This document shows, piece by piece, positions 16,172 through 62,952 of a stretch of DNA of 64,000 nucleotides (the stretch's first letter is position 1; each line of letters begins with the position of its first letter). The notes beneath the pieces are model-generated. The model did no database searches, was not told the DNA's origin, and saw only the letters and a list, made by a program, of their open reading frames with translations. Position numbers and translations under genes: made by a program. Source of the stretch: Methanolinea mesophila (GTDB lineage: Archaea; Halobacteriota; Methanomicrobia; Methanomicrobiales; Methanospirillaceae); NCBI RefSeq assembly GCF_017873855.1, contig NZ_JAGGKR010000001.1, positions 124,001 through 188,000 on the forward strand. Reading direction: 5' to 3'.

Positions 16172-16744
16172 GTGCGGTAGGTTTCAAGCCTCGGTGCGGC
16201 CTCTTCAGGTGTCAGGCCGATGAAAGAGCGGGATAGTTTCTTATCCAGTTCTTAGGCCGTGAGCATCTCCCCCGCGGACTCGCGGTCTCGATCCCGTATA
16301 TTTTCCGGCTTCCTGGCGTGCATTTTCATCTCCCGGATCGCGGGAATGGTCTCACTCCGGTCAACCAGGATCTTGTCTTGTGGTAATCCGGGCAATCCCG
16401 CCGGTTTACATCCTGACAAAACCCACATGTGACCGGTCATCATCATGTGATCGACCATAGGGTCATACCGACTGTGCCTGTCACGGTACCATTTTAAGAA
16501 TGTTTCCCAGGATTACGGGTGTCGCCGGGCCTGCGTTATCATTCCCGGCACCCCTGCATGTGTCAGGGTAATGAATAGAAGTTCCGATGGGAGCGTATGC
16601 AGGTGCCGCATGGACAAAATATATATGCTTGCCACACGGTATCCGGGCTGATCATCTGCCTTCCGGGGGAATGTGGGAGAAGAACCGGTTCCGGGTCCTT
16701 TCATTCTTCTTTCGGCAGACGCATCGTAATCGGAGGTGATCCAC
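16172..16744. other. Intergenic region with promoter of the repeat lipoprotein
   Basis: No intact gene is seen. A minus-strand ORF at 16252-16458 may be more decayed sequence linked to the ATPase remnant, but it gives no firm match. A TATA-like AAATATATATGC lies at 16617-16628, about 120 bases before the lipoprotein start. Confidence 0.45.
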
Positions 16745-18100
16745 ATGAACAGGTACGCGGGCACCATTGTCCTTCTCGCATTCCTGCTGGTTACCCTGGG
16801 GACCGCGTCAGGTTGCATCAGCACAATGGATACCGCAGGCACGGGATTCCCCCTCCAGAATGACACCCCTCCGGTACCTGCACAGGAATCCGCCGTCGTC
16901 AACCTCACTGGTAATCAACCGGATTATTCAGCAGGATCTGAGAACGAATCCATGCCGGCAGACGAAGCCCCGCAGGAGAATTCATCCTTTACGGGCACAC
17001 TCGTTAATTACTCCCTGAATGAATCCCTCATTATCCCCGCCGACGGATCCGGCAACTCAAATCTTTCAGGGGAACTGTCGAACGATTCCCTCAACGAATC
17101 CCTCATTATTCCCGCCGACGGGTCCGGCAACTCAAATCTCTCAGGGGAACTGTCGAACAATTCCCTCAACGAATCCCTCATCATTCCCGCCGACGGGTCC
17201 GGCAACTCAAATCTTTCAGGGGAACTGTCGAACAATTCCCTCAACGAATCCCTGACCTACCAGGAAGAAGGATCAGCAAACACCACTCTGACCGGTGATC
17301 AGGAAACCTCACTGCGCCTTGAGGTGATCCGCTTCCTCCCGTCAACTCCGCCGGTTTCATCCAGGTTCGCATTCCCCCTCAACGGGACGTTATCCGCAGG
17401 GATATCCGGGATTTCCTCCCGCCAGGTCGAGTATGCATGGGATATCAACGGGGACGACTACCCGGAGTATACCTCAGAAAACCCGGCCCACTCCTACGGG
17501 GCCCCCGGCGAATACGAGGTTACGCTCACTGTTATCGACACCACAAGCGGGCGTAACGCTACCCGGACCGACCTTCTCTGGGTCCCTGAATACCTTGTGC
17601 CGCTCCACCCTGGGTGGAACTTTATCTCGGTACCGCGGGAGCTCGCACCATACGCCATCCTCGGAAAGATCATGGACCTGAACCTCACCGGAAACCACCC
17701 GGTGCTCGGGTATCAGCCACTGACCGGGTGGGAACCGCTTGATGGCGGGACGCGGGTCAGGCCGCTTGACGGGATCTGGATCTATTCCACGGAAGAGAGC
17801 GAACTCTCGTTGATCTTCAGCACCGATCCCGCGCACCCCCCGGCGGTCAAGGAGCTCTTCTCCGGGTGGAATGCCGTCGGTTTCACCGATATCGCACCGG
17901 TCCCGGCAAACGAGACTCTTTCATCCCTGGGCGACCTGTGGACCAGTTGCACCGGGTATAACGCTTCAACCCAGACGTATGACTCTTCGATACTCAGGGA
18001 TTCGAAGGGAGCGAGCAATGATTCCGGCCTGCTTCGCCCCGGCCAGGGTTATTGGGTGTACGTCTCCGGAAACGGAACTCTTGCAGCCATCGGAGCATGA
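16745..18100 (+). CDS. Secreted lipoprotein with tandem Asn/Ser repeats, PKD-like domain and GWN module
   Basis: A 451-residue exported protein starting at the ATG preceded by a near-perfect GGAGGTGATC ribosome site. The hydrophobic signal ends in LGTASGC, a lipobox that could anchor it to the membrane by the cysteine. Residues about 90-170 hold three near-identical 25-residue repeats (SLNESLIIPADGSG...) full of N-x-S sequons. A PKD-like domain follows (EYAWDINGDDYPEY, ENPAHSYGAPGEYEVTLTV). The C-terminal 165 residues form a bipartite module, HPGWNFISVPRELAP to GQGYWVYVSGNGT, also found in three other proteins here. It is probably a glycosylated surface protein; its function is unknown. Confidence 0.85.
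   Translation: MNRYAGTIVLLAFLLVTLGTASGCISTMDTAGTGFPLQNDTPPVPAQESAVVNLTGNQPDYSAGSENESMPADEAPQENSSFTGTLVNYSLNESLIIPADGSGNSNLSGELSNDSLNESLIIPADGSGNSNLSGELSNNSLNESLIIPADGSGNSNLSGELSNNSLNESLTYQEEGSANTTLTGDQETSLRLEVIRFLPSTPPVSSRFAFPLNGTLSAGISGISSRQVEYAWDINGDDYPEYTSENPAHSYGAPGEYEVTLTVIDTTSGRNATRTDLLWVPEYLVPLHPGWNFISVPRELAPYAILGKIMDLNLTGNHPVLGYQPLTGWEPLDGGTRVRPLDGIWIYSTEESELSLIFSTDPAHPPAVKELFSGWNAVGFTDIAPVPANETLSSLGDLWTSCTGYNASTQTYDSSILRDSKGASNDSGLLRPGQGYWVYVSGNGTLAAIGA
17012..17254 (+). repeat. 75-bp tandem repeat, three full copies plus a partial
   Basis: Units begin at 17012, 17087 and 17162, each encoding 25 residues (S-L-N-E-S-L-I-I-P-A-D-G...). A fourth, truncated copy of 18 bases starts at 17237. 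Copies two and three differ by only a few bases, which points to recent expansion. Confidence 0.95.
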
Positions 18101-22748: not shown

Positions 22749-25700
22749 TCAGGAGAACGTATCCCCTGCCGGGATTGTGAATGCGAAGGTCGAACCCTTA
22801 CCGATATCGGATTCCACCCATATCCTCCCTCCATGTCGTTCCACGATCCTCCGGGAGATCGCGAGCCCGATACCGGTTCCCGGGTACTGCTCCTTGGTGT
22901 GAAGCCGCTTGAAGATCTCAAATATGGTCTCGGCATAGTCAGGATCGATCCCTATCCCGTTGTCCCGGACTGAAAAGACCCAGAACTCATCCTTACGGGT
23001 GGCTCCAATCCGGATCCAGGGGACATCCTCCCCCCTGAACTTGATCGCGTTGGAGATCAGGTTCTGGAATACCTGGGCGATCTGCGTGCGGTCCACAGGG
23101 ACCGTGGGAAGATATCCCACCTCGATCCTCGCCCCGCTCTCCTTCGTGGAGACCGAGAGGCTTTTGAGGGCATCCTCCACCACTACGTTCATGTCGGTCG
23201 GGGCAAGCGGTCTTGCCCTTGAATTGATCCTGGAGAACTCGAGGAGGTCGTTTACCAGGGCGTCCATCCTTTTTCCGCCCTCGACCACGTAATCGATGAA
23301 CTCGTCCGCATCGGCATCGAGTTTTCCCTGGTAGCGCTGCTGGAGCAGCTGGGAGAAACTCGTCACCATGCGAAGCGGTTCGCGGAGGTCGTGGGACGCC
23401 ACGTACGCGAAACGCTCCAGTTCTTCGTTCGATCTCGCGAGCTCTTCGGCTTTCCTCCGAAGTCTTGCGTCCATCTCTTTCCGGCCCGTGATATCCTGCC
23501 CCTGGGCGATCACGGAGTGGACGGTGGTCCCGTCCGGTTCGTACAACGTGGCAGAGTTCCACAACACCGTCCGAATCTCCCCGGTGTTCGTAACAACCGG
23601 GATTTCCACGGATTCCCACCGCTCTCCCTTCGAGGTCTTCCGGATCAGGTTCATGTTCGCATCCCTGCATCTGCCGGGAAACAGGCTCTCGAGGGGCATT
23701 CCCACCACTTCCTCCGCATTTTTCCCTACAAGTACCTCGAACGCCCGGTTGAACCGTGTGATCCGGTACTCAGGGTTCCATACGATGATCGGGGCATTGG
23801 CATATCCGATCAGGTTCTCCAGGTACTGTGTAGTCTCCCGGAGCGTGCGTTCGCTCTTCCCGAGTTCGTCCAGGTTCTGGCGGAGCTCTTCCTCCTTCTC
23901 CGCGAGGTCCTCGTTCAGGACGACAAGTTCCTCGTTCTTGGCGGCAAGTTCCTGGTTCTTGGCGGCAAGTTCTTCGGCCGCCCGGATCCTCCCGGTGATA
24001 TCGTGCACCATTCCGACCGACCTGATGATCGAGCCTGTCCCGTCCCGGTAATGTTCGCACTTTTCGTGGACAGATCTCACCTCGCCGGTGTCTTTCCGTA
24101 CGATCCTGTGCTCGATCTCGTAGTGATCCACGCCCTCGCGAAGGGACCCCAGGTATGCAGCGTCCACCGCGTCGCGATCATCAGGGTGCACCGCGTCCAG
24201 GAAGGCCTCATATGTCGCGCCGAATACACCCGGTTCGAGGCCGAATATCCGGTACACTTCATCCGACCAGGTAAGACGGTTGGTACGCACATCAAGATCC
24301 CAGCTCCCGAGGTGGGCAATTGATTCCGCTTTGGAGAACAGTATTGTACTCTCACGGAGCGCACGTTCGCCTCTCACGATCTCATCATAGTTCTGGCGCA
24401 GTTCTTCCTCGATCTCGGCAAGCTCTTCATAGAGGACGTTCAGTTTCCGGTTCATATCCGAGAGTTCGGTGTTTTTCCGGAGCAGCTCCTCTTCCACCCT
24501 CCGTTTTGCGGTGATGTCACGGATGGTCTCGATGGCCCCGATGGTTCTGCCCTCGTCGTCCCTGATCACCGATGCTTTTGCCCAGAGATGTGCTCCGCTT
24601 CCGTTATTGAACCCGGGAGCGAACGTCTCGGCGATCACGACGTCATCGCGGTCCTCGAAGATATCGTAAAGATGCCCGATGTCCCGCTTTCCGGTGATGA
24701 CGAAGTCATTCAGCATAGGCCTCTCCTCCCCGTAGAACGGGATGGAGTACAGGTAGTTCCCCTTCCCGAGGATATTCTCCTTCGGGACAGAAGTCATCGT
24801 CTCAATTGCCCTGTTCCAGGCGATGACCTGCTGGCGGTCGTCAAGGACAAAGGTCGCGTCCGGGAGGAACTCGATGATGTCCATCAGCTCACGATGGGAT
24901 TTTTTCAGATCCCGTTCGGCCACCTTCATCCTGGTGATGTCCCTTGAGGTGACCAGCGCGGTCTTCTGGTCTCCGCTCTCGTCGCGTAACGGATGGATGG
25001 TATAAAGCCGCCACCTGATCCCTTCCGGATCGCGGAAGACATTCTCCCCGGTCTTCGATGTCCCGGTCAGAAATGCAGCGGCGAGGTCTGCCCGGAATGA
25101 CCCGATGGATTCCATCACCACGCCTGCCCGGTCCCAGATATCCTCGACCGATCTCCCGCAAAGATCGGCGGGCTCACCGGAAACTGCCTTTGCCACCGCG
25201 GCATTCACATATACACACGTACCGTCCCGGTCCACGATGTACACGAAGTCTTCCATCGAGGATAGTATACCCTGGAGTTTTCTCTCCTGGAAGGCGACCT
25301 TCTCGGAGAACAGGTGAAGTTCATCGTTCTGGGATCTCAGTTCTTCGTTTGCGACCTCGTACTCTTCGTGCAACAGCTGGTAACGGTCCGCAAGGGCCTG
25401 GAGATCTTCTTCGGCCTTCTTTCTCACCGTGATGTCCCGGTTGCTCCCGCGGCGACCGATAAATTCTCCCCGGTCGTCGAACAACGGCCTGCAACAATGG
25501 TTTATCCATCGGATCTCCCCGTCACGGGCTATTATCCGGAAGTCCAGGCAGCAGGTTTCATCCCTGAATTCATGAAAAATTCGATCCCGGTGTTCTTTCA
25601 GGATTCTCCCGTCTTCGGGATGGACGATCGATTCCAACAGGTCCGGGTCCGCAATAAATTCTTCCGGGGAATATCCCGTAATGCGCTCGCACGCCGGAGA

Positions 25701-25793
25701 GAGGTAGATATACAGGTTATCCGGTCCAAGCAGCTCTTCCCAGTCATGGCTGGTATCGATCAGGTTCCGAAAGAATTGTTCCTCATTATTCAC
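22749..25793 (-). CDS. Multi-PAS sensor histidine kinase
   Basis: A kinase of about 1014 residues. I take the GTG at 25793 because GGAGAGGAG lies just upstream, rather than the in-frame TTG at 25841. About five PAS domains run from the N-terminus (starting at FFRNLIDTSHDWEELLG; YIVDRDGTCVYVN; EFLPDATFVLDD; SIAHLGSWDLDVR; YANAPIIVWNPEY), joined by charged coiled coils such as AAKNQELAAKNEELVV. The HisKA domain has FAYVASHDLREPLRM with the phosphorylated His near residue 801. The ATPase domain has the N-box FQNLISNAIKFRG, DNGIGIDPDY and GTGIGLAISRRIV. No membrane helix is seen, so it is a cytoplasmic sensor, possibly of redox or small ligands. No response regulator is adjacent. Confidence 0.93.
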   Translation of the reverse strand: MNNEEQFFRNLIDTSHDWEELLGPDNLYIYLSPACERITGYSPEEFIADPDLLESIVHPEDGRILKEHRDRIFHEFRDETCCLDFRIIARDGEIRWINHCCRPLFDDRGEFIGRRGSNRDITVRKKAEEDLQALADRYQLLHEEYEVANEELRSQNDELHLFSEKVAFQERKLQGILSSMEDFVYIVDRDGTCVYVNAAVAKAVSGEPADLCGRSVEDIWDRAGVVMESIGSFRADLAAAFLTGTSKTGENVFRDPEGIRWRLYTIHPLRDESGDQKTALVTSRDITRMKVAERDLKKSHRELMDIIEFLPDATFVLDDRQQVIAWNRAIETMTSVPKENILGKGNYLYSIPFYGEERPMLNDFVITGKRDIGHLYDIFEDRDDVVIAETFAPGFNNGSGAHLWAKASVIRDDEGRTIGAIETIRDITAKRRVEEELLRKNTELSDMNRKLNVLYEELAEIEEELRQNYDEIVRGERALRESTILFSKAESIAHLGSWDLDVRTNRLTWSDEVYRIFGLEPGVFGATYEAFLDAVHPDDRDAVDAAYLGSLREGVDHYEIEHRIVRKDTGEVRSVHEKCEHYRDGTGSIIRSVGMVHDITGRIRAAEELAAKNQELAAKNEELVVLNEDLAEKEEELRQNLDELGKSERTLRETTQYLENLIGYANAPIIVWNPEYRITRFNRAFEVLVGKNAEEVVGMPLESLFPGRCRDANMNLIRKTSKGERWESVEIPVVTNTGEIRTVLWNSATLYEPDGTTVHSVIAQGQDITGRKEMDARLRRKAEELARSNEELERFAYVASHDLREPLRMVTSFSQLLQQRYQGKLDADADEFIDYVVEGGKRMDALVNDLLEFSRINSRARPLAPTDMNVVVEDALKSLSVSTKESGARIEVGYLPTVPVDRTQIAQVFQNLISNAIKFRGEDVPWIRIGATRKDEFWVFSVRDNGIGIDPDYAETIFEIFKRLHTKEQYPGTGIGLAISRRIVERHGGRIWVESDIGKGSTFAFTIPAGDTFS

Positions 25794-25997
25794 GAGATCT
25801 CCTCTCCGATGCGTCGCAGTATTGTTGTTGTTCCCCGGCAAAATTAAAATTTATTATTGACCGATTTACGGACTTCTTTTTCAATTTCCCGGCGGTTGAT
25901 ATTCTGTTTCACTCAGAGATATTAAACACGTCTATTTGGGGTTCTCATAGGCAGGTGTGATGTAAAAGGTTGGGATTCACCCGCCTCCTGCAAAAAA

Positions 25998-26006
25998 CTA
26001 TAAATA
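25998..26006 (+). promoter_or_regulatory. TATA box of the multicopper oxidase gene
   Basis: CTATAAATA within aaaaactataaataccaa, about 40 bases before the GTG start; a transcription start near 26027 would leave a short leader containing the GGTGGT ribosome site. Confidence 0.65.
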
Positions 26007-26044
26007 CCAATTGTCCGGAGTCATCATAACGAAGGTGGTGTGGT

Positions 26045-28987
26045 GTGCGATACATAGCGTACTTATCGTTAGTAATCCTGCTCCTTTTCCTCTCGGGTGC
26101 GGGGACGGCATCTGCCGACCCCATCCCTCCTCTCGTGGCAGGTTTTTCCGCAAATCAGACTTCAGGATTCTCCCCCCTCACGGTGCAGTTCACCGATACG
26201 TCGACCGGGACAGGCATCTTCAGTTATATGTGGAACTTCGGTGACGGTTCTCCTATCGGGACCTATCCCGACCCGATCCATACGTTCACGGCCGAAAGCT
26301 CCACGGTCTATAATGTGACCCTCGTAGTGACCAATTTCGAGACTTCGAGCACAGCCTCGACATTTATCACCGTGAATGTCTCCGGCCCGCCGCCCGAGCC
26401 CCCGGTGGCTGAGTTCGACGCCGATCCGGATCAGGGACCTTCCCCTCTCGAGGTGCATTTCACCGATCTCTCGACCGGGACCCCTCCCTTGAGCTACCTA
26501 TGGGACTTTGGGGACGGGGGCCCGGTCTCCACCCAGGAGAACCCGGTTCATATCTTTACCTCGGACTACACCCGGACATTTCCCGTCACTCTCACGGTGA
26601 CGAATACCGCCGGGTCAAGTTTCGTGGTGCACAATGTGGTCGTAGAGTCCTCCTGCCCGCCCGCTCCCGGACGGCACTTCAACGTCACTTTGCCGAGCGG
26701 ATGGAACCTCTTCTCGACCCCGATCCTGCTCGACCCGGACCAGGCGAAACTGGAACGGCTTCTCCGGTTCTCCGGCGACGATTGTCTCATCGTCCTTGGG
26801 TGGAATGATGGGTCCTGGTTCATTCCTTCCGGGGATTACACCCTCTCCCCGCTCGATGCCCTCTATATCAAGATGAAACGCGCCGGGATAGTCTCCCTGT
26901 ATCCCTCCGACGAGGTCTCCGCACCCCCGACGAGGGTGCTCGACGCCGGGATAAACCTGATAGGCCCGGCTCCGGCGTTCACTTCCGGCGTGTTCCCTGC
27001 GATGCCGCTCGACCAGGCCCTGATCAGCATTCAGGAAGGTGCAAACCACGGACTCGGGTACCTCATGGTGATCAGCCCGTCCCTGAATCAGCCGGGATGG
27101 GGGTATGCCAGGGGCGGGCCGGTCCAGGACCTGCTTCCCTATAAGGGCTACTGGGTCGTGATGCAGAACGCAGGGACCCTTATCGGGTTCTCGACCACTC
27201 CTCTCCCTCCCGAACCGGCACTGCCAATCGATCCGCACACTATTCCCAAATGGGTGAACCAACTGAACGGACCGCCGCCGGTCTACGTGGGGGACGAGGA
27301 TGGACGCTACGAAATTACCATGTCAAGTTTCTGCCAGCAGATCCTCCCCCCGCCATTCCCGGAGACCGAGGTCTGGGGCTACGGCGGTGAGGCGAAGGAT
27401 GGTGTTACCGGTCAGCCCCTCGGATTTGTGAGGAACTCTCCCGCCCCCAGCTTCGAAGCAGAGAAAGACATACCGGTCACGGTGAAGTGGGAGAACCAGA
27501 TTGAGGACCCCCACCTGTTCGCCGTGGATCCCACGCTCCACTGGGCAAATCCGAACCAGATGCCGCACCCGATCCCGCCGTTCAACCCCTATCCGCCCGG
27601 TTATCCCGATGCGCAGTATCCTGTCCCGCTGGTAACCCACCTCCACGGAGCGGAAGTCCAGTCCACTTCGGACGGAGGCCCGGAACAGTGGTTCACCTCG
27701 ACCGGACTGCACGGGATGGACTACCGGACTGAAGAGCCGACAGACCCGGATTCCGCGGTGTACATCTATCCCAACAGCCAGCAGCCGGCGACCCTGTGGT
27801 ATCATGACCATGCGCTCGGCATCACCAGGATCAACGTGATGTCCGGACTCGCCGGGTTCTATCTCTTAAGAGACGAGGACGACCCGGTTGGTGCGGTCCT
27901 TCCGCAGGGGAAGTACGAGGTACCCCTTGCAATCCAGGACCGTGTGTTCCTCTCTGACGGCTCCATATTCTTCCCGTCCGTTGGAAACGTCCCGGACGTC
28001 CACCCCTACTGGAACCCCGAGTTCTTCGGCGATACCATCATGGTGAACGGGATGGTCTGGCCGAACATGAACGTGGACAGGGCGGCATACCGGTTCAGGC
28101 TGCTCGACGGGTCCAATGCACGGTTCTACACACTCACGCTGTCGAACGGCATGAATTTCACCCAGATTGGGAGCGATGGCGGATATCTCAAGACGGCGGC
28201 GGAGCAAAACGAGCTCACCATCGCCCCGGGAGAGCGTGCGGATATCCTGATTGACTTCTCGAGCCTTGCTCCCGGGACAAAGGTGATCCTGATGAACGAC
28301 GCACCGACGCCGTTCCCCAGCGGGGATGCCGTCGACCCCGCCACGACAGGCCAGATCATCCAGTTCACCGTGACGTCGGGCGTGGGGCCGGGGATGCCCG
28401 TCCTCCCCGCCGAATTGAACCCGACCCTGAACGGGACCTTCCCCACCCTCCCTGATCCGGTGAACACCAGGATCCTGACCCTCCAGGAGGTCGTGAGTCC
28501 GGAAGACGAACCGCTGGAGATTCTCCTTGACGGGCAGAAGTGGATGGCGCCGGTATCAGAACTTCCGGTCCAGGGAACCACCGAGGAGTGGATGATCGTT
28601 AATCCCACCATGGATACCCACCCCATTCACCTCCACCTGGTACAGTTCCAGCTGGTCAGCAGGCAGGCGTTCGATGTCGACACTTACCAGACCGACTGGA
28701 TCGCCCTGAACGGCGAGCCCCCGCTCGACCATCCCACGATAAACGTGCCCAACCTTACGCCTTACCTGCTTGGAAGCCCGTCGGGGCCACTCCCGAGCGA
28801 GACCGGGTGGAAGGATACCGTCCAGATGAACCCCGGTGAAGTGACTACCATCAGGATCCGCTGGGCCCAGCAGGACGGCGACGAATATCCGTTCGATCCC
28901 ACGATCGGACCGGGATATGTATGGCACTGCCACATCATCGACCACGAGGATAACGAGATGATGCGGCCCTACATGGTAGTCGCCTGA
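26045..28987 (+). CDS. PKD-GWN-multicopper oxidase fusion, secreted
   Basis: A 980-residue exported protein. After a signal peptide (LSLVILLLFLSGAGTASA) come two PKD domains (residues about 30-115 and 118-200), each with a WxFGDG core, then a GWN module (about 216-390, LPSGWNLFSTP to YKGYWVVMQNAG), then a multicopper oxidase (about 400-980). All copper motifs are intact: HLHG (H532, H534), WYHDH (H587, H589), HPIHLH (H859, H862, H864) and HCHIIDHEDNEMM (H961-M973). The last supplies the type 1 Cys962, His and Met ligands. The enzyme resembles CotA/bilirubin-oxidase-type laccases, which oxidise metals or phenols and reduce O2 to water. This is striking for a presumed strict anaerobe. GTG start; GGTGGT upstream. 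Confidence 0.92.
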   Translation: MRYIAYLSLVILLLFLSGAGTASADPIPPLVAGFSANQTSGFSPLTVQFTDTSTGTGIFSYMWNFGDGSPIGTYPDPIHTFTAESSTVYNVTLVVTNFETSSTASTFITVNVSGPPPEPPVAEFDADPDQGPSPLEVHFTDLSTGTPPLSYLWDFGDGGPVSTQENPVHIFTSDYTRTFPVTLTVTNTAGSSFVVHNVVVESSCPPAPGRHFNVTLPSGWNLFSTPILLDPDQAKLERLLRFSGDDCLIVLGWNDGSWFIPSGDYTLSPLDALYIKMKRAGIVSLYPSDEVSAPPTRVLDAGINLIGPAPAFTSGVFPAMPLDQALISIQEGANHGLGYLMVISPSLNQPGWGYARGGPVQDLLPYKGYWVVMQNAGTLIGFSTTPLPPEPALPIDPHTIPKWVNQLNGPPPVYVGDEDGRYEITMSSFCQQILPPPFPETEVWGYGGEAKDGVTGQPLGFVRNSPAPSFEAEKDIPVTVKWENQIEDPHLFAVDPTLHWANPNQMPHPIPPFNPYPPGYPDAQYPVPLVTHLHGAEVQSTSDGGPEQWFTSTGLHGMDYRTEEPTDPDSAVYIYPNSQQPATLWYHDHALGITRINVMSGLAGFYLLRDEDDPVGAVLPQGKYEVPLAIQDRVFLSDGSIFFPSVGNVPDVHPYWNPEFFGDTIMVNGMVWPNMNVDRAAYRFRLLDGSNARFYTLTLSNGMNFTQIGSDGGYLKTAAEQNELTIAPGERADILIDFSSLAPGTKVILMNDAPTPFPSGDAVDPATTGQIIQFTVTSGVGPGMPVLPAELNPTLNGTFPTLPDPVNTRILTLQEVVSPEDEPLEILLDGQKWMAPVSELPVQGTTEEWMIVNPTMDTHPIHLHLVQFQLVSRQAFDVDTYQTDWIALNGEPPLDHPTINVPNLTPYLLGSPSGPLPSETGWKDTVQMNPGEVTTIRIRWAQQDGDEYPFDPTIGPGYVWHCHIIDHEDNEMMRPYMVVA

Positions 28988-31383: not shown

Positions 31384-34300
31384 GTGATACGCGTCCTCTA
31401 TGTCGACGACGAGCCCGGTTTGCTCGAACTCGCCAGGCTCTTCATAGAGAAACTGGGAAATTTCTCCGTCGATACGGTGGAGTCCGCGTATGGTGCCCTC
31501 GAAAAGATCGACATCGGGGACTACGACGTAATCGTCTCTGATTACCAGATGCCGGGCATGGACGGGCTCGAACTCCTCAAAAAACTCCGTGCTTCGGGAG
31601 ATACCACCCCCTTCCTCATCTTCACCGGGAAAGGGCGTGAAGAGGTTGTCATCAAGGCATTCGAGAACGGGGCCGACTTTTATATCCAGAAAGGGGGCGA
31701 CCCGAATGCACAGTTCGCGGAACTCTCTCACAAGATCCGGCAGGTGATGAACCTCCGCCAGGCGGAAACAGCGCTCCGCGAGAACGAGGAAAAATACCGG
31801 AATCTCGTGGAGAAAGCGAACGAGGCGATCCTCATCGCCCAGGACGGGATAATCCTGTTCGCGAACCCGCGTCTGGCGGAGATACTCGGAATCCCGGCGA
31901 ATGACCTCGAAGGAACGCAGGTTTCGGACTACGTCCACCAGGACGACCTCGAGATGGTGATGTCCCGGCATGTCCACAGGCTCTCGGGAGAGGACGTCCC
32001 TGATACCTACGAATTCAGGGTTATCGGCTCCAATGGACAAATTTACTGGGTAGTCGTGCACGCTACGAGGATCCAGTGGAAAGAAAGACCCGCCCTTCTC
32101 ATACTGCTCGACGACGTGACCGCCCGGAAACAGGCAGAAGAGGAACTCCTGGCCTCGAACGAACAACTGGCAGCTGCAAACGAGGAATTGAAACACCAGT
32201 TCCATCTCCTTTCCCAGAAGAACGAGGAACTTCACGGAGCGTACGAACAGCTCGCTGCGGCCGAGGAGGAACTCCGGCAGAATTACGACGAGCTCGCCCA
32301 GAACCAGAAACTGCTCACGGAGAGCGAGGGGAGGTTCCGGCGGATAATCGAGACCGCATTCGAAGGCGTCTGGCAGATGGACGACCAGCTCCGCACCACG
32401 TTTGTCAACAGCAGAATGGCGGAGATGCTCGGGTATACCCCCGAAGAGATGCTCGGGAGGAAGATCACCGCCTTCATGCCGGAAGAAGAACTCCCCGGCC
32501 ACGAAGCCCTGATAGAGCGAAGGCACAGGGGCAACGGTGACCATTACGAACGGCGCCTCATCCGGAAGGATGGCAGGGTGATCTGGACACTGGTATCGGC
32601 AACCGCGGTTACGGACCGGGATGGGCGGTTCCTCGGTTCGTTCGCCATGCTCTCGGACATCACCGACCGGAAGAAGGCCGAGGAGGAACTGCGCGAGAGC
32701 AGGGAACGGCTGGAGAACATCATCGATTTCCTCCCGGACGCAACGTTCGTGATCGACCCCGGGGGCAGGGTGATAGCCTGGAACAGGGCCATCGAGGAGA
32801 TGACCGGGATCAAGGCGGAAGATATCCTCGGCAAAGGGAATTACGAATATGCACTTCCCTTCTACCGGGAACGCCGGCCGATACTCGTCGACCTTGTCTT
32901 AAAAGACGACCCGGACGTGGCGGCACAGTATCCTTTCATCATCCAGGACGGGGAGAAGCTGATCTCCGAAGTCACCCTCCCCCAGTTCCATGAAGGAAAG
33001 GGGGGTCATTTCTGGTTCACCTCGACTCCCCTGTATGATACGAATGGCTCGATCGCCGGGGCTATAGAATCCATCCGGGACATCACCGACCGGAAACAGG
33101 CGGAGGACGAGCTGCAGCGGGAGACGTACGAACTGGGGGCTGCATACGAGGAACTCGCCGCATCGGAAGAGGAACTGGCCCAGAGCTTCGACGAGATGCA
33201 AAAGAGTCATGCGAGGCTCGAGCGGAGCGAGAGAAGGTTCCGGCAGCTCTTCGAGGCGATGTTCGAGGGGGTTGCGCTCCACGAAATCGTGTATGACAAG
33301 GACGGGGCCCCGTCCGACTATCGAATCCTCGCGGTAAATCCCTCGTTCGAGAGAATTTTAGGCATCGGACGTGAAAGTGTCCGCGGTAAAACCAGCAGGG
33401 CTGTATATGGAATGGCAGAGCCTCCCTTTCTCGATATTTACGCCCGGGTGGTGGAATCCGGGGTGCCGGAATCATTCGAAACCTATGTCCCGGGGATGGA
33501 CAAATATTTCCGGATATCTGTATATTCCCCGCATATCCACCAGTTTGTCACGATCTTCGAGGACATCACCGACCGGAAAACCGCCGAGATAGCCCTCACC
33601 GAGGCTCGGGATCAGGTGAACGCCACGCACCGGCTCGCCCACATCGGGGTATTTTCGTGGAATGCTGAAAAGGACATCATTACGTGGTCGCCCGAACTCT
33701 ATCGTATCCTGGGAAGAGACCCGGCCTGTCCCATTCCCTCGTTCCAGGGACTGGAACCGTGCTTTACCCCCGCGAGCTGGAAGGATCTCAAGGCCGTATC
33801 TTTGCGGACACTGGACCAGGGAGAACCGATCGACATAGAACTGGAGATTGTCCGCCCCGATGGGACAATCTGCCTGACGCATACCATCGGCGGTCCGATC
33901 CGCGACAGTTCGGGAAGAATTACCGGCATCCACGGAACGGTCCAGGACACGACACGGCGCAGACAGGCGGAGAATGAACTTCGTGAACGGGAGCGGTTCC
34001 TCTCTACGCTGATCAGCAACCTCCCCGGCTTTGCCTACCGGTGCAGGAATGACCGGGACTGGACGATGGAGTTCATCAGCGACGGGTGCGAGGCGGTCAC
34101 CGGGTATTCACCGGTGGACTTCATCGGAAACGCCACCCTGGCATTCAACGACATCATTCATCCGGAGTACCGGGACAAGCTCTGGGATACCTGGCAGGAA
34201 GATCTCGAACACAGGACTGTCTTTGAGGAAGAATACCCCATAATAACCCGTGACGGGAATATCCGCTGGGTGTGGGAGCGGGGACGCGGGGTATTTTCCG

Positions 34301-35025
34301 GGGACGGGACGCTGCTCTTCCTCGAAGGGTTCATCACCGATATCACCGGGCGCAAGCAGGCGGAGGAGGCGCTCAGGCAGGCATACCGTCAATTGAAGAT
34401 CCTCACCGGCATCACCCGCCACGATATCCTCAACAGCATCATGGTCGCCGAGGGTTACCTCCAGATCATGGAAGGGTCGGACGGCGCCAGACAGGGAGAG
34501 TGCTGCAAAAAGGTCCACCAGTCCATCAGGAAGATCCAGCGGCAGATCGAGTTCACCCGGGAATACGAGGACCTCGGGTCGAACGAACCGATCTGGCACC
34601 CGCTCCCTGCAATCCTCCGTGACATGGATATCCCTGACGCGATGAATCCGCAGATCGATGTCGCCGGGGTGGAGATCCTTGCCGACCCTGCACTCCCGAA
34701 GGTCTTCGAGAACCTTCTCGACAACACGCTCCGTCACGGGGGGAAGAAGGTCTCCGGGGTCCGGGTCACCTGCGAGGTCTGTGAGGACGAGCTTCTGGTC
34801 ACCTGGGAGGACGACGGGGTCGGTGTCCCGGAGGATGAGAAAGAAAGGATATTCGACCGCGGTTACGGGAAAAATACCGGTCTCGGGCTGTTCCTGGCCC
34901 AGGAGGTCCTTGGAGTGACAGGGATCGGGATCAATGAGAAAGGAATCCCCGGGGATGGAGCCCGGTTCGTGATCCGGGTGCCGAGAGGCGGGTACCGCTT
35001 CACTACAGGTTCAGGCAGGGATTAG
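31384..35025 (+). CDS. Hybrid REC-multi-PAS histidine kinase
   Basis: A 1213-residue cytoplasmic signalling protein. It starts with a receiver domain (residues 1-120, VLYVDDEPGLLE, phospho-acceptor Asp53 in VSDYQMPGMDG, Lys in FTGKG). About six PAS domains follow at roughly 136-255, 317-430, 440-570, 617-735, 745-865 and 870-1000, with coiled-coil linkers between them. The H-box is ITRHDILNSIMVAEG with His1013, a form frequent in Methanomicrobia, and the ATPase domain has FENLLDNTLRHGG, DDGVGVPEDE and KNTGLGLFLAQEV. The N-terminal receiver implies input from another kinase. GTG start at 31384; GAGAGG lies about 8 nt upstream. The third PAS resembles the third PAS of the other kinase in the window. 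Confidence 0.93.
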   Translation: MIRVLYVDDEPGLLELARLFIEKLGNFSVDTVESAYGALEKIDIGDYDVIVSDYQMPGMDGLELLKKLRASGDTTPFLIFTGKGREEVVIKAFENGADFYIQKGGDPNAQFAELSHKIRQVMNLRQAETALRENEEKYRNLVEKANEAILIAQDGIILFANPRLAEILGIPANDLEGTQVSDYVHQDDLEMVMSRHVHRLSGEDVPDTYEFRVIGSNGQIYWVVVHATRIQWKERPALLILLDDVTARKQAEEELLASNEQLAAANEELKHQFHLLSQKNEELHGAYEQLAAAEEELRQNYDELAQNQKLLTESEGRFRRIIETAFEGVWQMDDQLRTTFVNSRMAEMLGYTPEEMLGRKITAFMPEEELPGHEALIERRHRGNGDHYERRLIRKDGRVIWTLVSATAVTDRDGRFLGSFAMLSDITDRKKAEEELRESRERLENIIDFLPDATFVIDPGGRVIAWNRAIEEMTGIKAEDILGKGNYEYALPFYRERRPILVDLVLKDDPDVAAQYPFIIQDGEKLISEVTLPQFHEGKGGHFWFTSTPLYDTNGSIAGAIESIRDITDRKQAEDELQRETYELGAAYEELAASEEELAQSFDEMQKSHARLERSERRFRQLFEAMFEGVALHEIVYDKDGAPSDYRILAVNPSFERILGIGRESVRGKTSRAVYGMAEPPFLDIYARVVESGVPESFETYVPGMDKYFRISVYSPHIHQFVTIFEDITDRKTAEIALTEARDQVNATHRLAHIGVFSWNAEKDIITWSPELYRILGRDPACPIPSFQGLEPCFTPASWKDLKAVSLRTLDQGEPIDIELEIVRPDGTICLTHTIGGPIRDSSGRITGIHGTVQDTTRRRQAENELRERERFLSTLISNLPGFAYRCRNDRDWTMEFISDGCEAVTGYSPVDFIGNATLAFNDIIHPEYRDKLWDTWQEDLEHRTVFEEEYPIITRDGNIRWVWERGRGVFSGDGTLLFLEGFITDITGRKQAEEALRQAYRQLKILTGITRHDILNSIMVAEGYLQIMEGSDGARQGECCKKVHQSIRKIQRQIEFTREYEDLGSNEPIWHPLPAILRDMDIPDAMNPQIDVAGVEILADPALPKVFENLLDNTLRHGGKKVSGVRVTCEVCEDELLVTWEDDGVGVPEDEKERIFDRGYGKNTGLGLFLAQEVLGVTGIGINEKGIPGDGARFVIRVPRGGYRFTTGSGRD

Positions 35026-47712: not shown

Positions 47713-50091
47713 TCAGGACGGAGGGATGAACGTCCGGTTCTCCCTCATAAAGACCCAGTAGCCTTTTCCGGGGACGATGATCTGACTATCGCTGTGCACC
47801 CCGCTCCCTCCCTGGATGATGGACGGTTCGTATACCTGGCCGACGGCATCGAACCCTATCATCATCACCCAGGACGAGTTCACCGGCGCCATGCCGTTCG
47901 CCGCGGTTGCGCTCGTCATACCGGGGATGCCGAACCCGTTCCACCCGGCCACCAGCGGCCTGCCTGCGTACGTCTGGTTATCCGAGAGGACCAGGCCGAC
48001 ACGCATCGGGTCCCGTGAATAAATCCAGATATTGTCCATCGCACTCAGGTTGTCATCCCTCGCCAGGGTCACCCATTCTTCCGAGGTCGCATTATAGGAG
48101 AACAGGCTGTGTGCCATGGTATCGACGCCGAAGAACACCACCCCGGGGGTGTTATACCCTGGTTCCAGGTTGACCGGGATAGAGATGAAGTTCCAGCCGG
48201 TGTAGAGCGTCAGGTTCCCCCCCGAGGGAGGCGGGGGCGTAGGGGTCGTGGGCAGTGTGGTCGGTGTCCCGGTCGCGGTGGGGCTCGTGGTCGGAGTGGT
48301 GGTGATCGTAGTGAGCGTGGGCGTAGGGCTCAGGGTAGTCGACGTCGGCGTGGGTGTGGCCGTGGTCGGGGTCGGGGTCACGGTAAAGGTGGGTGGAGGG
48401 GAGAGCGTGGGGGATATCGTCGGGGTCGGCGTTATCGGGACCAGAGTGGCGATTACCGTCGTGGTAGAGCCCGCCTGGATGGATACCTGGGTCTCGAAGC
48501 GTTGATACCCGGTCTTCTCTATTGCCACGCTGTGGGTTCCCGCCTGGACCCCCGGCAGGAACAGCGGGGTGGTCCCCACGACCACATTGTCCAGTATGAC
48601 CGAGGCATCCGTCGGCGATGAGAACACCTGGAGGGTTCCGCCCCCGGTACCGGTCGTTGTCGGAGTCGGGGTCATTGTCGTTACCGTTGGCGTGGGGGTG
48701 CCCGTTGTCGGGGTCGGAGTCACCGTTGTTACTGTCGGGGTAGGAGTGCCCGTTGTCGGGGTTGGGGTTACGGTCGTTACCGTCGGTGTCGGTGTACCCG
48801 TTGTCGGAGTCGGGGTTAACGTCGTGACTGTCGGCGTTGGAGTTCCCGTAGTCGGGGTAGGGGTTAGGGTAAATGTGGGAGGCGGGGACAGGGTGGGGGA
48901 TATCGTCGGGGTCGGCGTTATCGGGACCAGGGTTGCAATCACCGTCGTGGTAGAGCCCGCCTGGATGGACGCCTGTGTCTCGAAGCGATGATACCCGGTC
49001 TTCTCTATTGCCACGCTGTGGGTTCCCGCCTGGACCCCCGGCAGGAACAGCGGTGTCACCCCCACCGGAACATTATCGATGAAGACCTGTGCATCGGACG
49101 GGGATGAGAATACCTGGAGTGTCCCGGACAAGGTGCCCGTTTGAGTCGGGGTTACCGTCGGTGTCGGTGTACCCGTTGTCGGGGTGGGAGTTATTGTCGT
49201 AGTGGTGGGCGTCGGGGTTATCGTTGTCGGGGTTGGGGTTACGGTCGTCACTGTCGGGGTAGGGGTACCGGTTGTCGGGGTCGGGGTTGCTGTCGTTACC
49301 GTGGTCGTCGGGGTAACTGTTGTCACGGTGGGGGTCGGGGTGGAAGACCCCGCGGTCAGTCCCAGTTCACGTACCGATCCCGACTGGAAGACCGCGGTCT
49401 GGCCGGCAGGGAGTCCGCCCACGGTAAACTGAATGACCGGCGCTCCCCCTGAGAAATCCTGCTCATACGCATGGATGACGAGCCGGGGATCGAAGGGTCC
49501 GCTCCCGCCGTATGTCCCCGTCGTCGTTACCGTGATACTCCCCCGGAGTTCTCCGTTAATGTACCCCGACACGACGGTTCCCGGGGGGGCGGAGGCCCCG
49601 TTCAGGATGACCGGACCGTAGAACTCCGACGGGGGTACCTCGGGACCGAGAGTCGGGGTTGGGGTAGGAGTTGTCGTCGTGGGAGAAACGGTCGTTGTCG
49701 GGGTCGCGGTGGTTACGCTAGTCGTCGGGGTGGGGGTGGGGATCGGCCCGGAGGTGACCTGGATATAGTCGTATTTGATCAGGGAATGCGACCCGAATTC
49801 ATCGCTCCGGTCCATCCGTACCGAGTAAATGCCGGGGTCGATATACTCGTGAACTACCTGTGCGTCCATGGTTGGGCTTACAGTCCCGTCCCCAAAGTTC
49901 CAGCTCCGGAACCGGACCTCCCCGGGAACGGTCGAGATATCGGTAAATTCGACCACAAGCGGAGCTTCCCCGAGGGTGATGTTTGCAATGAAATCGATCA
50001 CGTATTCCTGGTCCTGGGCCACCACCGGGGAAAAAATCAGGAGGATTGCCAGAGTTCCAAGAATAATGCCGGCGGAATCGGACAGGGTCAT
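47713..50091 (-). CDS. Large secreted PKD-PEGA protein with Thr/Pro linkers and GWN module
   Basis: A 792-residue exported protein. After a signal (GIILGTLAILLIFSPVVA) come: a PKD domain (about 30-115, FRSWNFGDGTVSP), a Thr/Pro linker, a YG/PAP module (about 152-250, PSEFYGPVILNGASAPPGT), a long TPTPT linker, PEGA domain 1 (about 320-395), another linker, PEGA domain 2 (about 485-560), a third linker, and a GWN module (about 630-792, LYTGWNFISIP to GKGYWVFM). The linkers are likely O-glycosylated wall-spanning stalks. No anchor is seen. It is probably a surface adhesin or scaffold. The two PEGA regions are nearly the same, a recent internal duplication. Confidence 0.85.
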   Translation of the reverse strand: MTLSDSAGIILGTLAILLIFSPVVAQDQEYVIDFIANITLGEAPLVVEFTDISTVPGEVRFRSWNFGDGTVSPTMDAQVVHEYIDPGIYSVRMDRSDEFGSHSLIKYDYIQVTSGPIPTPTPTTSVTTATPTTTVSPTTTTPTPTPTLGPEVPPSEFYGPVILNGASAPPGTVVSGYINGELRGSITVTTTGTYGGSGPFDPRLVIHAYEQDFSGGAPVIQFTVGGLPAGQTAVFQSGSVRELGLTAGSSTPTPTVTTVTPTTTVTTATPTPTTGTPTPTVTTVTPTPTTITPTPTTTTITPTPTTGTPTPTVTPTQTGTLSGTLQVFSSPSDAQVFIDNVPVGVTPLFLPGVQAGTHSVAIEKTGYHRFETQASIQAGSTTTVIATLVPITPTPTISPTLSPPPTFTLTPTPTTGTPTPTVTTLTPTPTTGTPTPTVTTVTPTPTTGTPTPTVTTVTPTPTTGTPTPTVTTMTPTPTTTGTGGGTLQVFSSPTDASVILDNVVVGTTPLFLPGVQAGTHSVAIEKTGYQRFETQVSIQAGSTTTVIATLVPITPTPTISPTLSPPPTFTVTPTPTTATPTPTSTTLSPTPTLTTITTTPTTSPTATGTPTTLPTTPTPPPPSGGNLTLYTGWNFISIPVNLEPGYNTPGVVFFGVDTMAHSLFSYNATSEEWVTLARDDNLSAMDNIWIYSRDPMRVGLVLSDNQTYAGRPLVAGWNGFGIPGMTSATAANGMAPVNSSWVMMIGFDAVGQVYEPSIIQGGSGVHSDSQIIVPGKGYWVFMRENRTFIPPS
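48380..49125 (-). repeat. Duplicated PEGA-linker unit inside the surface protein gene
   Basis: Two copies of a unit of about 250 bases (roughly 48380-48640 and 48868-49125), each encoding a PEGA domain with LFLPGVQAGTHSVAIEKTGY followed by an ITPTPTISPTLSPPPTF linker. They are separated by low-complexity Thr/Pro codons. This is a likely site of slippage and recombination. Confidence 0.85.
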
Positions 50092-59493: not shown

Positions 59494-62400
59494 ATGAGTA
59501 CTTCGACGAAGCGATCGCGGCGGTCCTATCAGCTGGTGCTGCTGGCTGCCGTGCTCTGCTGTATGGCATTTATTCTCCCGGCCTCGGCAGGCCCGGGTGA
59601 TCCGACACATGTTGTTCTCAACATTTCGCCGGATATCGTATGTGCAGAAGACCATCAGATCAATATTACGTTCCATGCAAACTCGGGTATGAGTGCCGGG
59701 GTGAACGGTTTCCTGATCGGGTTCGACGAGGAGGAGATCGACCTCGAAGACATCACCCCACAGTGTATCACCGTCTATAATAACGGCCAGAGCGGGTCTC
59801 CCTCTGAAATCATCGTCTTCGAGACACCGGACCCCGAATACACTCAGTATTATTTCCCGGACGGTCTCACGGTGATAAAACTGTGGACTCCGATACCGAT
59901 CACGTTCAATACCGACGTGACCATCATCATCGACTGCGCCGAGATCGAATGCCCGTGCAATTGTTCGGGTTACTTTGCATGGGTGGCCCGCGACGGTGGA
60001 ACCGCGGTCATGAGCTCTCCCGACTACCTGAATGTCCAGATCGACGTGCATTCCGGGCAGAACGGTACCGTGGAGCTGCAGCCTGCAGGACCCGAAGCAC
60101 CTCCGGACTTCACCGCAACCTTCCCGTGCTGCGATGACGCGACGTTCGAGATCGAGGCCGACCCGTGCTATTACATCTCGTCCGTGATTGTCACCCCGCT
60201 CTGCGGAGAGGATGACGAGGAGGAGTGCGTGTTCATTCCGCCGAATCCTGACGATTATTTCGGGGAGAGCGAGTACACTTACACGTTCACCAACCTGACA
60301 TGCTGCTATGCCCTCGACGCGGAATTTGAGGCTCGCCAGTGCAATATCACCGCGGAGGCCTGCATGGGTGGCCGGATCCAGTCCCCCGACATGACCTGGT
60401 CCCCGCCCAACTACACCATGTCGTTCTATTGCGGTGATACTCCGACGTACTTCATCAAGCCGGACCTCTCCAACAAGATCTCCGATGTGACGGTCGACGG
60501 CGAGTCGGTCTACGATGACCTTGTGTTCTTCCAGAACGGAAGTGCGACCTACACGTTCGACCCGCTGGTGTGCGACGGGCAGGACATCGTCATCCGGGCC
60601 TGCTTCGAGCTTGCCCCCGTGGACGCCTTCCTGAAGTACCAGAACGCGACCCGGGACTGCCGGGGCGTGACCGAGGTCCAGGTCTACGGTGCCGATAACA
60701 TCCAGGCGGTCCTCGATTATGTCGACCAGGTCTACCTGAGTGGCAACACTTCCTCGTTCGACATCAACGGGACCAGCACCGGGACTCATTTCGGTTCCTA
60801 TTCTGCCGGGGTCTACGTTGACGATGCGACGAGCGGTGTCGGCGATACCCTGACCATCAACGTGCTCTCGCTGCCGTCGGTAAACCCGGAGACCTACAAG
60901 GTGACCTACGATGACGGGACGACGACCCGGTATGCAACGCTCACCATCCTGCTCGACGGAACCCCGGTCTGGGCCCCTGCCCCACCGGTCGGTGTCAGGG
61001 ACGTGATCGACGTACAGGCCCAGATACCGGCATGGAACATGGTGACACAGGCGTACCTCGATGCGAACCCCGACTTTGAAGGGCTCATCGGCGCCGTCAT
61101 CTATGTGGATGACGGGGACTACAACGAAGTCATCGAGGTCGACACCCCGGGGCTCCACCTGGTCAACATGACCGGGGCGTTCCCCGAGATCGATGCCGAA
61201 GGCCTGACTCCCGCCGGGAGCGGGGACACCAGGTCCGCGGTCTTCCTCTCAGCGGGGTGCACCGGCATCCAGGGCTTCGAGATTGAGGGTGCCGGAGAAG
61301 ACGCCGGCGTGAACGCAAGCGGTATTGCGGTCTACCCGTCCAGCGAGAAGTGCCAGAGTGCATTTATCTGGGACTACGACCCGGTATCCGAGCAAAACAT
61401 CCAGGTCCCGTGCCACTACGGCAGGGTGAACATTCTGGATAACGAGATCCATGAAAACACCGCAAGGGGTATCCGTGCGATCAACTGCAGTGTCCTGATC
61501 AGCGGCAACATGATCTATGAGAACGGTTTCGACGGGATCGCCGGTGAGGACCTGTTCACCGGAGTCGAGTGCATCGACCCGTTCGCATACACTCACAGCC
61601 CCGCCTCGAGCGAGATCATCTTCAACGATATCTTCGATAACGGCCCGAGCGGAAGAGGAGTCTGGGTCGTGTGGGACCCGGTCAGCCAGACGTACCGGTT
61701 CACCAGCAATGCGACCGCGTGCGGTACGCTGCCCGGCTGGACCGATTCGGGTATCGAGATCGATGAGATGAGCGAACCCGGCCTCGTCCCGGACCAGGTG
61801 CTCTACATCAAGCACAACTGGATCAACGGCAACTATCACGCGGGGATCTTCCTCATGGAAGACTCGACCGATGAGGCGCTGAACAACACTATCCTGATCG
61901 ACGGGAACGACATCGAGTACAACGGTGTGTTCGGTATCTCCACGTTCGCAGGTGAACCCAGCCAGGTGACCGTCATCTACAACAACATCGTAGGGAACAG
62001 GTTCTGGGGAATCAAGAACTGGGAGACCGAGGACGAGGACGATGTCCTGATCGCCAAGGAGAACTTCTGGGGACCCGACGTAGGATCCGGGATCCCGTCG
62101 GGCGGACCGCACTGGGGTCCCGAGCCGATCACATCCCCCCTCATTCCCCCCTGCTACTGCCATGAGCCCGACCAGCGGAGCGATGCACTCGGCAACGGTG
62201 ACAACGTGAGCCACTGGGTGGAGTACAACCCGTGGCTGTACTTCCCGTCCGATGAGATCTTCATGGACGATACCAACCCCATGTGGATGATGCGGGTGCT
62301 CGGGTCCGACACCCTCGAACTCCAGAAAGGCTGGAATACTCTCTCCGTCCCCTGCACCCTCTATACCAAGGCAGACACGATATCCGAGATCTCCACGCTC

Positions 62401-62952
62401 GGTGACTTCATCACCAACAACAACATGGTGATCGCATATTCCTGGAACGCGACCTCGGGTCTGTGGGAGAATATCGGTGCGAGTAATGCGAAGATCATCC
62501 CCAGCCAGGGATACTACATCAAGATGAAGGCTCCCACCAAGTTCCCGGTGCTCTATAGCAACAGCACGTCACCCGGGCTTCCCACCTACCCTGTGGTCCA
62601 GGGATGGAACCTTATCGGCGCTCCCTGGGGTATCGACCGGGTCGATGACGGCTACGGTGACGAAGGCCGCTGGGCAGTCGCAAGTCCCGAACTCGGCGAC
62701 CCCGAGGCGTTCATGATGGTCTGGCAGTCGCTCGAATCCATCAAGGAAGGCAGCGGCGGGACCAAGGGAGTGGCCATCGTGATCAGCCCCTCGGTGCCCG
62801 GGCAGTACGCCATCTGGAGCGAGTCGGTAACCAGCGGGTTCTGGCAGATCACGAACACCAGGGAGATGGTGACCGGAGAAGGGTACTGGGTCTACATGGT
62901 GAACCCCTCGACCTACGCCGGATTCGAGATCACCCCGTTCTACTACACGTGA
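59494..62952 (+). CDS. Giant secreted protein with Cys-rich repeats, beta-helix and GWN module
   Basis: A 1152-residue exported protein. The signal has YQLVLLAAVLCCMAFILPAS. Residues about 35-180 resemble a cohesin-like/beta-sandwich domain. From 185 to 385 there are InlB-B-like repeats in which paired cysteines replace the usual glycines (FPCCDDATFEIEADPCYYIS; FYCGDTPTYFIKPD). Residues about 500-860 form a right-handed parallel beta-helix (IYVDDGDYNEVIEVDTPG; RVNILDNEIHENTARGIRAI; ILIDGNDIEYNGVFGI), as in NosD or periplasmic copper-binding/carbohydrate-active proteins. The last 200 residues are a GWN module (LQKGWNTLSVPCTLY to GEGYWVYMVNPST). The start has GGGGAG upstream. It is cotranscribed with the next gene, 22 bases away. 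Confidence 0.88.
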   Translation: MSTSTKRSRRSYQLVLLAAVLCCMAFILPASAGPGDPTHVVLNISPDIVCAEDHQINITFHANSGMSAGVNGFLIGFDEEEIDLEDITPQCITVYNNGQSGSPSEIIVFETPDPEYTQYYFPDGLTVIKLWTPIPITFNTDVTIIIDCAEIECPCNCSGYFAWVARDGGTAVMSSPDYLNVQIDVHSGQNGTVELQPAGPEAPPDFTATFPCCDDATFEIEADPCYYISSVIVTPLCGEDDEEECVFIPPNPDDYFGESEYTYTFTNLTCCYALDAEFEARQCNITAEACMGGRIQSPDMTWSPPNYTMSFYCGDTPTYFIKPDLSNKISDVTVDGESVYDDLVFFQNGSATYTFDPLVCDGQDIVIRACFELAPVDAFLKYQNATRDCRGVTEVQVYGADNIQAVLDYVDQVYLSGNTSSFDINGTSTGTHFGSYSAGVYVDDATSGVGDTLTINVLSLPSVNPETYKVTYDDGTTTRYATLTILLDGTPVWAPAPPVGVRDVIDVQAQIPAWNMVTQAYLDANPDFEGLIGAVIYVDDGDYNEVIEVDTPGLHLVNMTGAFPEIDAEGLTPAGSGDTRSAVFLSAGCTGIQGFEIEGAGEDAGVNASGIAVYPSSEKCQSAFIWDYDPVSEQNIQVPCHYGRVNILDNEIHENTARGIRAINCSVLISGNMIYENGFDGIAGEDLFTGVECIDPFAYTHSPASSEIIFNDIFDNGPSGRGVWVVWDPVSQTYRFTSNATACGTLPGWTDSGIEIDEMSEPGLVPDQVLYIKHNWINGNYHAGIFLMEDSTDEALNNTILIDGNDIEYNGVFGISTFAGEPSQVTVIYNNIVGNRFWGIKNWETEDEDDVLIAKENFWGPDVGSGIPSGGPHWGPEPITSPLIPPCYCHEPDQRSDALGNGDNVSHWVEYNPWLYFPSDEIFMDDTNPMWMMRVLGSDTLELQKGWNTLSVPCTLYTKADTISEISTLGDFITNNNMVIAYSWNATSGLWENIGASNAKIIPSQGYYIKMKAPTKFPVLYSNSTSPGLPTYPVVQGWNLIGAPWGIDRVDDGYGDEGRWAVASPELGDPEAFMMVWQSLESIKEGSGGTKGVAIVISPSVPGQYAIWSESVTSGFWQITNTREMVTGEGYWVYMVNPSTYAGFEITPFYYT

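Follow-up and report, generated by a model that had tools for sequence, protein, structure and literature searches.

Is a multicopper oxidase (MCO) joined to surface-protein modules in a methanogen genome a genuine and intact enzyme, and what might such a protein do outside the cell of a presumed anaerobe? The question is raised by a single gene in the window, the 64,000-nucleotide stretch of Methanolinea mesophila DNA that was analysed as a whole. The source genome (2.66 Mb in two contigs, 98.98% complete) contains mcrA, so the organism is a methanogen, as had been supposed from the sequence at the outset; its lineage is presumed to be anaerobic. A 2008 survey classed 21 of 21 anaerobic archaea as copper non-users and placed CotA in no archaea (PMC2147054). 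In ANME-2d archaea, MCO domains have been described (PMC5244752). In literature of incomplete coverage, no report of methanogen MCOs joined to surface modules was found, nor any paper that combines a PKD domain, an MCO and archaea. What the locus presents is a new domain architecture built around a known kind of enzyme, in an unexpected organism.

Domain architecture and genomic setting

The initial annotation read the gene as one frame in which a signal peptide, two PKD domains, a module termed GWN and a CotA/laccase-like oxidase follow one another. That architecture is confirmed, and the four copper motifs are exactly those first given (Table 1). Pfam recognizes the two PKD stretches (PF18911, E 5e-21). 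The view that the protein is secreted and joined to surface-protein modules agrees with its signal peptide and with the occurrence of PKD and GWN in surface proteins. The further proposal, that an oxidase is here joined to parts otherwise present only in structural surface proteins, stands within the window but not beyond it, as elsewhere in the genome PKD is also fused to a second MCO. Neither a lipobox nor a C-terminal transmembrane segment was seen in the sequence or hydropathy profile, and no wall or membrane anchor was recognized in the protein; attachment would therefore rest on the GWN and PKD parts, whose function is putative.

Table 1. Features of the PKD-GWN-MCO gene (window coordinates) and the other MCO genes of the genome (coordinates within their own loci)
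Feature	Coordinates	Strand	Details	Basis
TATA-like box	25998..26006	+	CTATAAATA; putative, position fits an archaeal promoter	sequence
Shine-Dalgarno-like element	26032..26037	+	AAGGTG (GGTG site just 5' of the gene)	sequence
Whole gene	26045..28987	+	980 aa, GTG start	single open frame
Signal peptide	26045..26116	+	residues 1-24, probable cleavage between ...TASA and DPI, no lipobox	sequence; hydropathy peak at residues 1-20
PKD domain 1	26129..26383	+	limits approximate, WNFGDG motif	Pfam and motif
PKD domain 2	26399..26623	+	residues 119-193, WDFGDG motif	Pfam and motif
GWN module	26669..27205	+	~180 aa, duplicated GWNxxSxP ... GYWV pattern	genome and family matches
Proline-rich linker	27206..27226	+	junction of two ancestral parts	homologue searches, sequence
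CotA-type three-domain multicopper oxidase	27227..28984	+		Pfam, CotA match, model, Foldseek
Copper motif HLHG	27638..27649	+	residues 532-535	motif scan, alignment
Copper motif WYHDH	27797..27811	+	residues 585-589	motif scan, alignment
Copper motif HPIHLH	28619..28636	+	residues 859-864	motif scan, alignment
Copper motif HCHIIDHEDNEMM	28925..28963	+	residues 961-973, type 1 Cys962, axial Met972	motif scan, alignment
MCO gene L087	contig C2, L087:3416-9337		1973 aa; signal peptide, ~ten Ig/IPT-like repeats, five PKD domains, MCO	
MCO gene L088			630 aa; MCO and signal peptide only, unfused	
MCO gene L089	L089:3851-8593, genome C1 ~949-954 kb		1580 aa; distant MCO, Thr-rich N-terminus, FG-GAP-like repeats, complete copper motifs	

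Pfam holds no model for the GWN module, and an AlphaFold model built from the four window copies was poor (mean pLDDT 46.5). There are 13 matches to the module in the source genome, of which four are weak (E above 0.001), and 36 of 100 genomes in the family carry it; the modules closest to that of the window protein are 44-56% identical to it. In every other full GWN protein read the module forms the extreme C-terminus, and the closest of these proteins end in ...GF(S/C)TTP. GWN is a candidate surface-attachment domain, uncharacterized and about 180 amino acids long, found at the C-terminus of many secreted proteins. Other GWN proteins are encoded in the window at 16736-18100 (+), 47713-50091 (-) and 59494-62952 (+), and at family loci L124-L130. 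The window protein has the signal peptide, the PKD domains and the GWN module of these PKD-GWN surface proteins, but in it the module is not the end of the chain, the MCO starting at residue 395.

The surroundings of the gene offer little guide to its function. No copper or O2 gene adjoins it, and an operon, or an argument from guilt by association, is rejected because no neighbour is conserved across the ~70 related loci compared. Two large sensory proteins are encoded near the MCO gene (window 22749-25841, - strand, and 31384-35025, + strand), namely a multi-PAS histidine kinase and a response-regulator/PAS/kinase-like protein, the latter classified by eye; there is no evidence that these two nearby proteins control the MCO.

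Authenticity and origin of the fusion

Misassembly at ~27.2 kb, where a PKD-GWN gene and an MCO gene might have been wrongly joined, had been raised by the initial annotation against its own proposal, and it was checked from the sequence. The artefact would account for the finding that the PKD-GWN-MCO order, which the same annotation proposed to seek in other Methanomicrobiales, occurs in no other genome among 232 of the order. Against it, frame, GC and third-position GC are continuous through the junction, and the join is in frame and exactly at a domain boundary with no long exact repeat. The two nearest MCO paralogues share a DNA identity of only 80% and 70% with the window MCO, the longest exact words in common with L087 and L088 are 38 and 48 bp and lie far from the junction, and with the two nearest GWN genes the shared words reach 21 and 17 bp; a misjoin via repeats is therefore unlikely. 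With parallel PKD-MCO and Ig-MCO fusions on record and a nearly complete genome in two contigs, an assembly artefact is highly improbable.

The matches to the whole protein fall into two groups that adjoin at the linker. Those to residues 31-389 are separate surface proteins (e.g., G007, G046 and G229, at 41-43% identity), and those from residue ~382 onward are separate MCOs. The homologues of the N-terminal part (31-389) end in ...GFSTTPL, and the MCO of the window protein begins 14 residues past the start of that same sequence. Because GWN is C-terminal in the full GWN proteins read and the MCO comes right after GFSTTPL, the simplest history would be that a complete PKD-GWN surface protein gained an MCO, presumably of the archaeal secreted type, at its C-terminus. 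Judged by a comparison of the window MCO with its 86%-identical counterpart in L087 (dN 0.085, dS 1.16, ratio 0.07), strong purifying selection acts on the enzyme part; such a ratio between two fused copies indicates function.

The genome holds three more MCO genes, four in all, each with complete copper motifs. In L087 the Ig/IPT-like repeats were counted by eye, Pfam yielding only DUF7497 and other partial matches. Several further genomes of the family have open frames (951-1738 aa) with matches related to L089. A different genus of the family supplies L120, in which three Big_5 domains, a Big_9 domain and a bacterial surface Ig domain are joined to an MCO. By these domain assignments the fusion is not isolated, as the family has at least three fusions of an MCO to surface modules, this one included, and the parallel cases of L087 and L120, with other such modules, suggest selection for tethering. 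Cu-oxidase_2 was found in 13 of the 232 genomes of the order (3 of the 135 high-quality ones) and in neither control, Methanocaldococcus jannaschii or Methanosarcina acetivorans; most genomes of the order have no MCO, which makes the function dispensable.

Class and fold of the oxidase

The domains Cu-oxidase_2 and Cu-oxidase_3 are found by Pfam in the window protein (E 1.8e-18 and 2.5e-7), and residues 402-976 match CotA of Bacillus subtilis (1gsk) with an E value of 1e-93. In the AlphaFold model pLDDT exceeds 90 over most of the MCO, and confidence is low in the N-terminal half, for which the alignment had no rows. Foldseek superposes the model on CotA with a TM score of 0.91 by target length. 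All 12 copper ligands (10 His, 1 Cys and 1 axial Met) are present, and they are invariant wherever covered among 82 relatives, two of whose rows stop short of the last motif. Also invariant, among 30 sequences, are D543 and E968, the equivalents of Asp116 and Glu498 of CotA; these residues are near the trinuclear site, and CotA mutants at both have structure entries among the Foldseek matches listed. The original reading of an intact CotA/laccase-like oxidase is supported by the CotA match, the ligand conservation and the CotA fold, and by sequence and predicted fold the window enzyme is an intact CotA-type multicopper oxidase. A Met-rich segment over the type 1 site, as in CueO, is absent (at most 4 Met per 40 residues), which argues against a CueO-type cuprous oxidase. 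The NCBIfam model for CueO gives a score of 161 where the cut-off is 525, and the phenoxazinone synthase/PhsA equivalog gives 234 bits where the cut-off is 950.

Relationship to other multicopper oxidases

In a tree of 82 sequences, whose support values derive from a rapid search and whose deep forks are in several cases unsettled, the window MCO pairs with that of L087 (support 99), and L088 joins them next (99). The eight Methanomicrobiales rows, the window MCO included, form one clade (96) nested among sequences from Bathyarchaeota, Thermoplasmata and other archaeal metagenome-assembled genomes, while 35 Bacillota, mostly anaerobic clostridia, lie in a separate clade. L009 and L116, the latter from the same family as the source genome, are identical in the tree. 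In the phylogeny that had been proposed as a check, the window enzyme thus groups with archaeal relatives and not inside the bacterial clade, the compared set being one that leaves out the haloarchaeal enzymes. A recent transfer from bacteria is unsupported, since the Methanomicrobiales clade sits inside an archaeal-rich group; deeper transfers are likely on this tree because the archaeal phyla are not monophyletic in it.

A crude hydropathy test scored a signal peptide in none of 39 Bacillota relatives, several of which were borderline, whereas signal-peptide-like N-termini occur in nearly all archaeal relatives with a readable N-terminus. Among those positive by hydropathy are all seven Bathyarchaeota and the relatives from the order, together with every full-length Methanobacteriota row but L080, which falls just under the threshold. 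With signal peptides in the archaeal relatives and not in the Bacillota, secretion appears to characterize the archaeal branch. The Bacillota relatives (L007-L086), one MCO clade without clear signal peptides, are perhaps spore-coat proteins like CotA.

Possible role at the cell surface

In CotA-type MCOs, electrons enter at the type 1 copper and O2 is reduced at the trinuclear site. Since the residues for O2 reduction are intact and the protein is predicted to be exported, its likeliest role would be to oxidize, at the envelope, a reductant from outside the cell by means of trace O2. The product would be one secreted protein, a CotA-type laccase or metallo-oxidase tethered to the cell envelope by the PKD-PKD-GWN scaffold that the lineage uses for its surface proteins. 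Its type 1 copper may take electrons from an outside reductant such as Cu(I), Fe(II) or humic and phenolic compounds, and its trinuclear site would reduce O2 to water, so that during oxic episodes trace O2 could be destroyed, toxic metal ions oxidized at the cell surface, or both. A surface-tethered oxidase that uses trace O2 on extracellular Cu(I), Fe(II) or phenolics, in a protective capacity, is on balance the probable reading. In favour of this reading, the genome has further genes linked to O2 and copper, two for copper P-type ATPases and one for a CydA-like membrane protein (L185:4905-6461, PF01654, E 2e-26), the latter not adjacent to the MCO. With no cydB beside the gene and no GRQPW motif (read by eye), the CydA-like protein is not accepted as proof of O2 respiration. 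A haem catalase partner was rejected, such a gene being absent from the genome.

The enzyme might instead serve in copper detoxification, as a CueO-like cuprous oxidase at the surface that keeps Cu(I) out and for which O2 use is incidental, and the two copper P-type ATPases, neither encoded next to the MCO, would fit this, while the protein has a weak similarity to CueO. The CueO Met-rich segment is missing, however, the best match is CotA rather than CueO, no recurring copper genes lie beside the gene or its relatives, and O2 would still be required; in such a habitat, moreover, copper is mostly sulfide-bound. Detoxification of copper as the main role is accordingly rather unlikely. Less likely again is a role in growth or nutrient access rather than defence, through mineral coating or the recycling of humic acceptors, with Fe(II), Mn(II) or humic phenols oxidized outside the cell. 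CotA-type enzymes do take both phenolics and metals, tethering by PKD and GWN could place the enzyme on its substrates, and there are several MCO copies, but linked metabolic genes are not conserved and no pathway for the product was found.

Four intact MCO genes in a presumed anaerobic lineage could also be explained by an enzyme that works without O2, reducing N2O, NO or a like acceptor as is reported for the archaeal McoP of Pyrobaculum; a paper cited in PMC11111587 announces in its title that McoP from P. aerophilum has nitrous oxide reductase activity. The O2-related residues of CotA are conserved in the window MCO, which speaks against this explanation; it is improbable. The broader proposal, that the copper oxidases on surface scaffolds make up a dedicated O2-free envelope system in which electrons of external donors reach N2O, NO or another acceptor, is slightly more improbable still.

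Comparison with known systems

A methanogen that has four intact MCO genes, in two of which the oxidase is joined to surface modules, each by its own arrangement, contrasts with the 2008 picture of copper non-users, and it permits a direct test of the idea that extracellular copper enzymes shield some methanogens against O2 or metals. The GWN module becomes a candidate scaffold for the display of enzymes on methanogen surfaces.

CotA of B. subtilis is a spore-coat protein without a signal peptide. The window enzyme shares with that laccase (PDB 1gsk) the three-domain MCO fold, the four copper motifs and the equivalents of Asp116 and Glu498, and differs from it in being only ~36% identical, probably secreted, fused to PKD-PKD-GWN and furnished with extra loops. 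Nearest in the tree are the stand-alone archaeal secreted MCOs (L088, L116, L117 and L118), which are 61-71% identical and have a signal peptide and the same ligands but, unlike the window protein, are without accessory domains. The PKD-GWN surface proteins of the family (e.g., L124, L181 and those at window 16736-18100 and 47713-50091) likewise have the signal peptide, PKD and GWN, but with GWN at the end; among those read, none has an enzyme domain except for a subtilase-like sequence in L130. The laccase-like genes of anaerobic bacteria described in 2011, whose products are thought to be active at a distance from the cell, where conditions are more oxic, are likewise MCOs of anaerobes (Ausec et al., PMC3192119). 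Those genes are bacterial, and the Bacillota relatives compared here are without clear signal peptides, whereas the present enzyme belongs to an archaeal clade of apparently secreted enzymes and carries fused modules.
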